This document shows positions 28,474-34,554 of a stretch of 64,000 nt of DNA, piece after piece (within the stretch, counting starts at the first letter, position 1; each line of letters starts with the position of its first letter). The position numbers and the translations under genes are program-made. The notes below the pieces were generated by a model. The model ran no database searches and was not told where the DNA came from. It was given only the letters and a program-made list of their open reading frames with translations. Origin of the DNA: Candidatus Krumholzibacteriota bacterium (GTDB taxonomy: Bacteria > Krumholzibacteriota > Krumholzibacteriia > LZORAL124-64-63); the NCBI GenBank assembly GCA_024275485.1, contig JAJRZA010000017.1:1-64000 (forward strand), written 5' to 3'.

Positions 28474-28970
28474 TCATCGCCCCATCATTACCTGCAAAGA
28501 TTCAATCCGACGAATCTGATCGAGCGTCAGATTACGAATTCCTCCGGCCCGATTCAACGCCACCCGGGCAGCATCCTTTTGCCCTGATCGCCATTGAACC
28601 AACGCCAAATTGAACCAACCATTGATGTAGTTCGGAAAGTCCTCCACCAGTTGCTCAAGCAACTCCCGGGCCTCATCATACTTTTCCACCGAGGCATAGG
28701 CCGAGGCCAGGTTGGAACGAATTCGATGATTGCCGGGGCTCAGGGCGTAGGCATTTTCGAAAGCGTCGATGGCGTCATCCATTTGACCGGCCTTGCGCAG
28801 GGTCATGCCGGCCCGCGCAACCAGGGGAAAGCCCACTTAGGGTCCATGTTTGCCGCTCGTCGGAAGGAATCGAGGGCTTCGGGCAACTGACCCTAACGGT
28901 CCTTGAAACCCCCCAGCCGGTAGGGGATCTTGCTGTTATTCGAATGGCTGATAACATAATGAGATCGCGA
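28474..28970 (-). pseudogene. Broken TPR-protein gene fragment
   Basis: The last 120 codons (28474-28836) encode good TPR helices (MDDAIDAFENAYALSPGNHR, YDEARELLEQLVEDFPNY). Upstream, the reading continues in another frame with a further TPR (GQLPEALDSFRRAANMDPKW), so a one-base shift lies near 28820. An in-frame TAG precedes it at about 28893, after YRLGGFKDR. No intact start remains, and the fragment is abutted by transposase debris. It would have been a TPR scaffold protein. Confidence 0.65.
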
Positions 28971-29380
28971 TCACAAGAACCTAATGAGCAAGAGTTTACA
29001 TCTAAGTCCACTCCTGTCCTAAATAGAGTTTCTCGGACAGGTGAATTCGGCATCCGCAGCCCTATTGCACCTGTGGCAGCTTTCGAAATGCCGGTTTTCA
29101 AGTGCTTTTCGGCCTCCTCAGGCTTTTCTGTGGGTGTATGGCGTTTAGGACAGGCAAATATCCCTGGCCCCTGGTATTTCTTGCCTTCGGAAAGTGCATG
29201 TTCACGGCCTAGGCAATCCGCTTCAGAAAGATAAAATTGGATGAAAGTTCGTTCGATTCCGCTATTCAAAAGCAGCTGGTCGATCCTCTTGAGCGTTGTC
29301 CGGTATTGATGATAATCGACGTTGCCGATGACGACAGGAAGTGCTGGACTTAGCTCGGGCTGATAGGCTACAATCTGCAT
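28775..29380 (-). pseudogene. Putative transposase N-terminal fragment
   Basis: The ATG at 29380 has a strong ribosome site (AAAGGAG) and starts MQIVAYQPELSPALPVVIGN, then a helical segment (LKRIDQLLLNSGIERTFIQF). This resembles the N-terminus of some IS-encoded transposases. After about 70 codons the sequence stops looking like a coherent protein, and the frame runs into the TPR remnant, so it is truncated. The family is recalled only loosely, and an unrelated small gene is possible. Confidence 0.35.
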
Positions 29381-31296: not shown

Positions 31297-31848
31297 TCAG
31301 CGAAAAAGTGCCTTGATGTCTCCGAGCATCCCATGGGATGTGTCCACTGGCTGTAGGTCCAGCAACAACTCAACCATGTTCTTGATTTCGGCTTCGTCGA
31401 AGCTGTAATGGGATAATTGCAAAACCATATCCTGGTCGATGACGGCATTGTAGGGAATTCCTCCCGCACCCGGGAAACGGGTGAAAATGCTGTAATCAGG
31501 CGAAATCACTATCGGGTAGGTCAGTCCCAGGCCTTCAACCCATTGGGCTACCACCGAGGGATCCTCCAAAAGGTCCACTGCCAGCACCGTGAAACCGTAG
31601 TCCCGGTATACCTGCCAGAAGTTATTTTCAAGGATTGGTGATTCCTCGTTGCAGGGTGGGCACCAGGTGGCAAAGAAATTCAGGAGGATGACATCACCCT
31701 GAAAGTCATAAAGGCTTACCGGATTGCCGTCGAGATCCAGCAGTGTGAAATCTTCAACGGTGTCGCCAAGATCGTAGGATCCAATGGCTGATGCGGGCAG
31801 AAGAGCCAGCAGGGTGCACAGGATGGTCAGTTTTATCATTCCAAACAT
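31297..31848 (-). CDS. Exported TlpA/ResA-like thioredoxin-fold protein
   Basis: 183 residues with signal peptide (MIKLTILCTLLALLPASAIG) and GGAGG nine bases before the ATG. The AhpC/TSA-Redoxin fold is complete: DFTLLDLDGNPVSLYDFQG, NFFATWCPPCNEESP with the redox CxxC at about residues 63-66, and a cis-Pro region near GGIPYNAVID. It probably reduces or exchanges disulfides in the periplasm. The protein ends GMLGDIKALFR, a tail shared with two other exported proteins in this window. It is second-last in a four-gene minus-strand cluster. Confidence 0.88.
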   Translation of the reverse strand: MFGMIKLTILCTLLALLPASAIGSYDLGDTVEDFTLLDLDGNPVSLYDFQGDVILLNFFATWCPPCNEESPILENNFWQVYRDYGFTVLAVDLLEDPSVVAQWVEGLGLTYPIVISPDYSIFTRFPGAGGIPYNAVIDQDMVLQLSHYSFDEAEIKNMVELLLDLQPVDTSHGMLGDIKALFR

Positions 31849-31937: not shown

Positions 31938-32495
31938 TCAGGGACGATACAAGGCTTTAACCTTTCCCATGGTGCTTTTGGTTGCCGGCGTAACATCTTC
32001 TTCCAAAAGAACATCGATCATGGTGGTGATGGCCAGTAGATCGAATCCCATGGCCGCGTACCTGATTTCCAGATTCCCGTCCAGGATGGCGTTGTAGGGC
32101 AGGGCCTGCGCCTCGGGGAAAATTTGAAAAAGATCCCAGTCCGGAGTCAACCAGATGGGGTAGGTGACACCCATGGCCTGGGCCCACCCCTGCACCAGGG
32201 AAAGCTGCTCCTGAATATCGATGGCGATCACGGTGACGTTCTCGTCGGCGTATCCCAACCAGATATCGTTTTGCAAATGCTCGGCCTCTTCGTTGCAGCC
32301 GATACACCAGGTGGTGAAAAAATTGAGCACGATAATCTGGCCTGCTTCGTCCGATAGGCTGACCAAATTCTCGTCCAGGTCGGTCAGGGTGAAGTCTTCC
32401 ACCACATCACCGACCTCGTAGGCCGAGGCACCGGTTGCACCGAAGGCTATCATCAAGACTGTAGCAAGGATCAGTTTGAGCAATGGGGTTCTCAT
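31938..32495 (-). CDS. Exported TlpA-like thioredoxin-fold protein (WCIGC)
   Basis: About 185 residues. The ATG at 32495 is chosen because AAGGA lies six bases upstream; another ATG lies two codons earlier. A signal peptide (LILATVLMIAFGATGASA) leads into EVGDVVEDFTLTDLDENLV and the redox site FFTTWCIGCNEEAE. It is clearly paralogous to the next gene downstream, with the same domain order and length. The tail STMGKVKALYRP matches the shared C-terminal motif. Likely a periplasmic disulfide reductase or oxidant handler. Confidence 0.86.
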   Translation of the reverse strand: MRTPLLKLILATVLMIAFGATGASAYEVGDVVEDFTLTDLDENLVSLSDEAGQIIVLNFFTTWCIGCNEEAEHLQNDIWLGYADENVTVIAIDIQEQLSLVQGWAQAMGVTYPIWLTPDWDLFQIFPEAQALPYNAILDGNLEIRYAAMGFDLLAITTMIDVLLEEDVTPATKSTMGKVKALYRP

Positions 32496-32517
32496 GGGCA
32501 TTCCTTCCGGTTCTGCT

Positions 32518-34554
32518 TTATCGCACCAGGGTCAGCTTGGCGACCGCTGTATTGTTCAACGTTCGAATTCGAGCCATGTACAGGCCGGAGGGTAAATCTT
32601 GACCGTGATCATCTTTTCCATCCCAGGCCAGATGGTTGGGCCCGGTGGGGCGAACTTCACTGCTAAGCAGGGTGCACACCAGACGTCCCCTGGTGTCATG
32701 TATATCCAGGCTCACGGATTGGCTGCGCTCCAGGGTGAAGGATATCTTCGTTTGGGGGTTGAAAGGGTTGGGCGAGACCTGTAGAAACACGGACGGCGCC
32801 GGTGGTACATCGGGTTGGGCGGCTGGGTTGTCAAGCAATCCATCAATGACGGCGATCATATCTTCCGGCCGATACTCGGTGCTGAAGTAGGCCACCCGAC
32901 CATCCTGATCGATGACATAGTCCAGAGGATAGGGCGAAGTGGCCCCGCTCTGTCGGTACTGCCAGTAGGTGCTGTTGGCGTCCAGAAGAATGGGAAATGA
33001 AACCTGGAAGGCGCTCAAAAAAGCATCCAGGTCGATGGCGGAATCCTGTCCGGCATTGAGACCGAAAACCAAGACATTCTGATCATCGTATCGCTGGCGA
33101 ACTGCCGCTTCGAGGTCCGAAAACTCCGGACCACAGACAGGTCACCAATTGGCGAAAAACGCCAATACCACCACCCTTCCCAAGCCGTCGCTGAGGCTGC
33201 GAGAAACGCCATCCATGTCGAGGTGGGTGAATTCGGGAGCCGTTTCCCCAAGGTTCAGGCTGTTGGGGTTGTCGTCCGCAGACAAGGGCAGGGTGATGGT
33301 GCTCTCGTCCATGTCGTTGGAGCTTATGCGCAGGAATGTTCCGGCATATCCCGGCTCCAAATGTGTAAAGCGGACGCCAACTTCCCGCGATTGGCCGGCG
33401 GGAAGAAAAAACTGCGTTGCGGTGGTGATGGTGTAGCTGTCGGAAAATGTCTGGATTGCCGACACTGATATGTCGGCACCGCCGGTGTTGCCCAGGGTGA
33501 AAGTGGTGTCGCGGAAGGATCCCACCTCGACATTGCCGAATTCAATACCATCGATGCTCACGTCAATGTCGCCGTTGAGGCTCGGTCCGATGCTGTAATT
33601 GCGCAATTTAGACCAGTCGGCCACCACCACCAACCCGTCTCGGGCGGCCAATCCCATGGCCCTGATCGGAGTGTTTTCACCGCCCACAGGCAGCGGATCC
33701 GAAGGGTCGTCCAGATTGAAGGATTCCACATCATCCCAGGCGGCCACATACACCGTATTGCCCACGATGGCGGCGGTTATGGCCAGGCCGCTGGTGTTGG
33801 CATTGCCGGCGAATACGGGGCTGGCCGGGTTGTCCAGGGTGAAAATGTCGATGCCGGCGCTGCCACAGCAAACCACAGCCAGATTGCCGTCCACCACCAC
33901 GTCGTTGGCCGAACCGCTGGTGGGCAGGCTCAACAGATGCACCGGCGCTGCAGGGTCGGCGATGTTGATCACCGCGAGCCCACCGATACCATCAGCCACA
34001 TAGGCCATGTCTCCCTGCAAATCCACATCCCAGGAATTGACCAGGGTCAGCACTTCACTTAGGCTGACGAAGCCGGTCTTCTGGTTGAAATCGATGATCT
34101 CCAGGCCGTCACCATGACGGCAGGCGTAGCCTATTCCGTTGCGCAGTTCGACGCCCTCGAAGGATTGGCCGGGCGTGCCGTGCACGGCAATCAGCCAGGG
34201 GTTGCCGTCAGGATTCACCTGCATGACGCTCAACAGATCCTCCCTGCCGCCACCCAGGGCCAGGTTGCCTTCCACGGCGCCGCGATAGAACCGATTGTAG
34301 GGGTGTCCGGGTGGTTCATATCGCCCCAACTGTAAAGGTTCGGTGGGGTCGGTGATGTCGATGACAGCCAGGCCTCCCACGCCAAAAACATAGGCGCGGT
34401 CACCAAGCAGTTCCACGTCCTGGAGCTCGGCAAAGAATAGAGGATTGAATATTCCGATGTCTTCCATCAGGTCGTCCTGATCGGCAGGCAGGCCCAAAGC
34501 CGATCCCCCCAGAACGAAGGCCAAAAGCAACGGGGCGAATATTAATCGTGACAC
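32518..34554 (-). CDS. Secreted LVIVD-propeller/thioredoxin/FlgD-like protein, candidate selenoprotein (in-frame TGA)
   Basis: 678 codons from the GTG at 34554 (CGGAGG upstream). A signal peptide is followed by an LVIVD-type propeller (about 30-330; GLAVIDITDPTEPLQLGRY), an ASH-like 'choice-of-anchor' beta domain (about 335-430), a thioredoxin/AhpC domain (about 435-580) and a FlgD-like sorting domain (VSPNPFNPQTKISFTL to the end). TGA at 33144-33142 is codon 471, exactly where the first Cys of the redox site belongs: FFANW-TGA-PVC-GPEF. The downstream part continues in frame for 207 codons. A perfect 6-bp hairpin begins 9 bases after the TGA. Selenocysteine (UxxC) is the best reading; a TGC/TGT-to-TGA mutation or base error remains possible, since other genes here have stops. 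Automatic tools would split it into two genes. Confidence 0.7.
33114..33132 (-). promoter_or_regulatory. Candidate bacterial SECIS hairpin
   Basis: On the mRNA, GGUCCG (33132-33127) pairs perfectly with CGGACC (33119-33114) around the loop GAGUUUU. The loop starts with G, as expected for SelB-bound bacterial SECIS elements, and lies 15 bases after the UGA, at the short end of the usual spacing. It lies within the thioredoxin coding sequence. Confidence 0.5.

Follow-up and report, generated by a model that had tools for sequence, protein, structure and literature searches.

ResA and TlpA are small proteins with a single domain and a membrane anchor, and in SOQ1 and NHLRC2 a thioredoxin-like domain containing Cys, not Sec, is fused to an NHL propeller. 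In total, 119 prokaryotic selenoprotein families and subfamilies are listed in a 2026 review (PMC13188914), and several of them are thioredoxin-like proteins with a UxxC motif, i.e. a Prx-like thiol:disulfide oxidoreductase (PF00578), Redoxin (PF08534), and a thiol-disulfide isomerase-like protein (cd02966) (PMC13188914 Table 1). The gene described here shares with these proteins the AhpC-TSA/Redoxin-type fold, Sec as the first residue of the CxxC motif, and a SECIS just past the UGA, but its thioredoxin domain is embedded in a 678-residue secreted protein with propeller, Ig, and FlgD-T9SS-like domains. ResA, TlpA, and StoA are the nearest solved structures by sequence and fold and have the CxxC motif at the same position, whereas Sec stands here for the first Cys. 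A DUF1573/ASH-type Ig-like domain is also present in the DUF1573 selenoprotein (UGC motif; PMC13188914 Table 1); Sec is listed there for the DUF1573 protein itself, whereas in our protein it is located in the thioredoxin domain and none is found in the Ig domain. SOQ1 and NHLRC2 likewise combine a thioredoxin-like domain with a beta-propeller, and SOQ1 structures were among the PDB profile and structure matches, but the propeller family, the domain order, and the presence of Sec are different here.

The order propeller, Ig, thioredoxin (U), and FlgD-T9SS-like tail is absent from the 119 families, and Krumholzibacteriota are not mentioned in that review (PMC13188914). None of the NCBIfam selenoprotein models matches the protein above its curated cut-off, and a literature search yielded nothing relevant that joins selenocysteine or selenoproteins with Krumholzibacteria, LVIVD, FlgD, or type IX secretion. 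The original prediction had regarded a secreted selenoprotein of such a domain order as new, which agrees with its absence from both the 119-family list and the NCBIfam models. The novelty lies in the architecture; the UxxC thioredoxin site at its centre is a known one.

The gene is located in a 64,000-nucleotide stretch of DNA (hereafter the window), whose source assembly is 3.98 Mb in size, consists of 106 contigs, and is 96% complete. The features identified are as follows.

32518..34554, minus strand: selenoprotein gene, 678 residues with Sec at 471, GTG start and TAA stop (frame translation and relatives)
34489..34554, minus strand: signal-peptide-like N-terminal segment, residues 1-22, hydrophobic LIFAPLLLAFVLGG, SALG (pLDDT <50)
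33580..34467, minus strand: LVIVD-repeat beta-propeller, residues ~30-325 (Pfam LVIVD, 60.5 bits; all-beta model, propeller matches)
33280..33576, minus strand: Ig-like ASH/HYDIN, choice-of-anchor-D-like domain, residues 327-425 (Pfam PF22544, NCBIfam choice_anch_D)
32830..33273, minus strand: ResA/TlpA-like thioredoxin domain, residues 428-575 (Pfam AhpC-TSA, 66.3 bits; PDB profile, AF2, Foldseek)
33142..33144, minus strand: selenocysteine codon UGA, residue 471 (frame translation, codons of relatives)
33114..33132, minus strand: SECIS-like hairpin GGUCCG-GAGUUUU-CGGACC, 9 nt after the UGA (folding and codon conservation in the family)
32521..32793, minus strand: FlgD_ig / T9SS-sorting-like C-terminal domain, residues 588-678 (Pfam FlgD_ig, 34.1 bits; NCBIfam Por_Secre_tail)
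31938..32501, minus strand: TlpA-like paralogue with WCIGC, 16 nt downstream (Pfam; adjoins the gene in many relatives)
31297..31848, minus strand: second TlpA-like paralogue, with WCPPC (Pfam; relatives)

The 678-residue minus-strand frame contains a single internal stop, the TGA at 33144-33142 (codon 471), beyond which 207 codons remain in frame up to the TAA. As had been predicted, this TGA occupies the first catalytic position of the ResA/TlpA-like thioredoxin domain (FFANW-U-PVC), and the Pfam domains continue uninterrupted across it in the joined frame (AhpC-TSA at 436-556, then FlgD_ig at 601-663); the redox-active position thus holds an in-frame UGA with conserved sequence on both sides. 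When the window gene was compared with its closest relative (82%), the dN/dS ratios before and after the TGA were 0.17 and 0.24, respectively. In other copies with finite dS, the ratio after the TGA was 0.11-0.42, values that are rough because many dS estimates are near saturation. These ratios indicate that the region 3' of the TGA is coding and is under purifying selection, in line with the original claim of thioredoxin and FlgD sequence in frame beyond the TGA.

TGA is otherwise a normal stop codon in the window, where it ends 14 of the 25 long open frames (selenoprotein gene counted). A code change that makes TGA a sense codon was rejected, as most long ORFs terminate at TGA; an ordinary TGA stop and Sec machinery in the same genome point to the standard code with a Sec system. 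The original prediction had also noted nearby genes with stops at non-Cys positions, a concern not borne out by a composition-based read-through scan of the whole window, which gave no other convincing sense-strand candidate. At 28474-29380, an open frame is overlapped and then followed by a TPR-like ORF in a different frame, a possible frameshift.

The full-length structural model (pLDDT 83.7) shows a beta-propeller at the N-terminus, followed by the Ig and thioredoxin domains and, at the C-terminus, a beta domain. The Ig-like domain scores below the cut-offs of both models (PF22544, 24.8 bits vs 25.5; choice_anch_D, 39.3 bits vs 45). In the PDB, the thioredoxin-domain profile matches thiol-disulfide oxidoreductases, ResA and TlpA among them, and the AF2 model of this domain (pLDDT 86.8) matches ResA in Foldseek with an E-value of ~1e-12 and, against ResA chains, TM-scores of 0.71-0.78 by query length. 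U471 and C474 align with the ResA motif and Pro543 aligns with the ResA proline at the cis-Pro position; U471 replaces the first catalytic Cys, and C474 is invariant in the family. As for the C-terminal domain, FlgD_ig (34.1 bits) is above its cut-off, NCBIfam TIGR04183 scores 23 bits against a cut-off of 23, and the Pfam sorting domain scores 23.8 against 27. SprA was detected above its cut-off in the genome, and type IX export of the protein is a possibility suggested by these matches.

Relatives were sought in 58 related genomes and then in 80 genomes of the phylum, and one internal TGA was reported in every family match spanning the site. The propeller-Ig-thioredoxin gene was found in 11 of the 80 Krumholzibacteriota genomes, several of which contain two or three copies, although these carrier counts are based on fragmented MAGs. 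For 18 copies, the window gene among them, the codons were read individually; the remaining copies share 43-82% identity with the window gene. All 18 have TGA at column 471 and none has Cys, with FFANW, FFANL, YFANW, FFSNW, or FFADW before the TGA and PVCGPE after it. Scanning 84,980 species genomes with a pattern open at the third codon base, which also accepted TGC and TGT, yielded 15 contigs, all with TGA; those with a named taxon belong to Candidatus Krumholzibacteriia or Krumholzibacteriota. Neither these 18 copies nor the scan provided a Cys homologue of the full architecture; the Cys/Sec swap is seen solely in the paralogues and the sister family. The alignment of homologues that the original prediction proposed gives U or Cys at column 471 and nothing else, with U in the 18 family copies and Cys in the TlpA-like paralogues except for two in L081, which have U. 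Plasmid sequences gave partial matches only, none covering 80% of the protein, and a search with the short genome-wide pattern TGG-TGA-xx-TGY returned noise only. The C-terminal part is longer in the gene variant L072, which has a second Ig domain, and, judged by length, also in L071 and L081. A second family copy in the same genome (L044, G000:C20:10500-12731) is frameshifted and located at a contig end, representing either a pseudogene or an assembly fault.

The perfect GGUCCG/CGGACC hairpin that had been predicted nine bases after the UGA was found at 33132-33114. The UGA is followed by 9 nt (CCU GUC UGU) and then by GGUCCGGAGUUUUCGGACC, which folds as an 8-bp stem with a GUU loop beginning 17 nt after the UGA; the folding energy is -17.1 kcal/mol for the stretch and -10.5 for the hairpin alone. 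Across the family, the energy ranges from -8.6 to -20.6, and some relatives have a shorter stem and a 5-nt loop. The bacterial SECIS model of PMC13188914 specifies a loop of 3-9 nt with G in its first two positions, an upper stem of 4-16 bp, a distance of 16-37 nt from the UGA, and an MFE of at most -7.5. Our hairpin conforms to this model, as the original prediction expected of the bases after the TGA. No Rfam model matches the hairpin.

In the window, a perfect 6-bp hairpin at such a position has a chance probability of ~3.5%; the hairpin of the window gene is by itself weak evidence, and it is its conservation that makes it strong. Because conservation of protein and RNA overlaps at the hairpin, the test was made on synonymous sites. 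The codons GGT, CCG, GAG, TCG, and GAC at +4, +5, +6, +8, and +9 are each invariant in all 18 copies, and GGT and TCG are minority codons elsewhere in these genes (20 and 26% of usage, respectively). Among the 95 columns with an unchanging degenerate amino acid, only eight have a single codon, and five of these are all five hairpin columns, leaving 3 of 90 invariant-residue columns outside the hairpin (hypergeometric P ~1e-6). The Pro, Val, and Cys codons directly 5' of the hairpin vary freely among synonyms, and the same is true within the hairpin of the third base of the Phe/Leu codon, on the loop side. The SECIS reading is supported by these invariant synonymous codons.

All four components of the Sec machinery, which the original prediction had proposed to look for, were identified in the same assembly: tRNA-Sec (69.5 bits, anticodon tca by ARAGORN), selA (449.5 bits), selB (330.6 bits, 666-residue frame, with the C-terminal end of the model also matched), and selD (366.5 bits). 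The selD gene (L064, G000:C1:20138-21055) is itself a selenoprotein gene, with an in-frame TGA at a known Sec site (AKSAG-U-AAKL); the Sec motif of SelD is UxxK (PMC13188914). In the phylum, tRNA-Sec was found above the Rfam cut-off in 72 of the 80 genomes. Two of the 11 carrier genomes have no tRNA-Sec above the limit, and those assemblies are 75 and 82% complete.

Both TlpA-like paralogues located downstream have Cys at the corresponding position (WCIGC and WCPPC), as originally noted, and the WCIGC paralogue (31938..32501) is probably in the same operon as the selenoprotein gene. Most relatives whose sequence extends in that direction also have at least one such paralogue 3' of the gene. 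In L081 (contig JACNKJ010000309.1, NIOZ-UU57), three clustered thioredoxin-like genes have TGA at the CxxC position (followed by PVC, PTC, and PSC), and two of them, FFATW-U-PTC and FFTTW-U-PSC, are TlpA paralogues of the kind that is Cys-type elsewhere. The TGA in these two neighbours represents the swap between Cys and Sec that a genuine selenoprotein site should show. A sister family of secreted proteins of ~270 residues, comprising a thioredoxin domain and a FlgD tail with the motif GYG-U-xx-C, is spread through the phylum (G000:C57:41993-42796 in the same genome as the window, L104-L128, L131, and L132). Among the genes of this family examined at the codon level, 30 have TGA and one has TGT (G039, L133). 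Its post-UGA hairpin keeps 167 of 210 pairs, compared with 69-122 for slid partners, and one pair shows covariation (C-G in 18 genes and U-A in six genes).

Taken jointly, we estimate a probability of about 0.95 that the gene at 32518-34554 encodes an extracytoplasmic selenoprotein, i.e. a secreted oxidoreductase with SelB- and hairpin-directed Sec471. The selenoprotein interpretation of the original prediction appears well supported: the three findings it had named as contrary to it were missing Sec machinery, TGC or TGT at the site, and unrelated stops scattered through homologues, and what was found is a complete machinery, TGA in 18 copies, and homologues free of such stops except in the one frameshifted second copy. 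A genuine stop at the TGA, or an error of sequencing or assembly, with a gene truncated at 470 residues or broken, would accord with TGA being the commonest stop among the long ORFs of the window and with a fragmented assembly that includes the frameshifted copy at a contig end. We consider this extremely unlikely, given the purifying selection downstream, the Pfam domains across the TGA, and the invariant hairpin codons. Since 18 copies, which come mostly from independent assemblies, share this TGA, a single-assembly base error (the TGC/TGT-to-TGA change raised as a caveat in the original prediction) is excluded.

Programmed read-through of the UGA by a near-cognate tRNA for Trp or Cys, which might yield the full protein alongside a short propeller-Ig product, would also explain the conserved TGA; the conserved hairpin could promote read-through as well, and the propeller and Ig domains alone would make up a complete secreted protein. 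It is nevertheless very unlikely, as the Sec machinery is complete, the codon coincides precisely with the catalytic Cys position in a UxxC site, the hairpin conforms to the SECIS model given for bacteria in PMC13188914, and insertion of Trp should inactivate this site. The division into two genes that mechanical ORF calling produces, with a propeller-Ig protein that stops at the TGA and a second ORF that begins downstream at TTG 33072, would sever the thioredoxin fold at the active site. The codons between the TGA and this TTG are conserved and specify the invariant core (PVCGPE) of that site, so that the probability of two separate genes is close to negligible. Cross-assembly conservation and the selection tests led us to reject the assembly-error, pseudogene, and split-gene readings.

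For the selenoprotein reading, we infer from a machinery and a signal recognized in the sequence that SelB carrying Sec-tRNA(Sec) would recognize the hairpin 9 nt after UGA 471 and insert selenocysteine. By analogy with the thioredoxin superfamily, the product would be a secreted thiol-disulfide oxidoreductase in which Sec471 acts as the nucleophile and Cys474 as the resolving residue. Binding or presentation of a partner is the probable role of the N-terminal LVIVD propeller and the Ig domain, and the FlgD-type tail probably directs the protein to the cell surface or holds it there, possibly via type IX secretion. The selenoprotein probably receives electrons from the CxxC TlpA-like proteins encoded in the same operon.

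Ordinary gene calling divides the gene into two ORFs and misses the active site, and for this reason both the family and its sister family are probably misannotated in public assemblies; the family also supplies an alignment with an invariant SECIS. With this gene, selenocysteine use now includes a large secreted protein of several domains, and our literature search found no selenoprotein study of the phylum concerned. A tentative, rather doubtful extension is that Krumholzibacteriota run an outward-facing, surface-anchored selenothiol system, in which several secreted FlgD-tailed thioredoxin families, the propeller fusion and the shorter GYG-UxxC family among them, would regularly use selenocysteine and would receive electrons from CxxC proteins encoded in their own operons. 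The data suggest that a phylum with nearly universal tRNA-Sec keeps this trait partly for extracytoplasmic redox chemistry.
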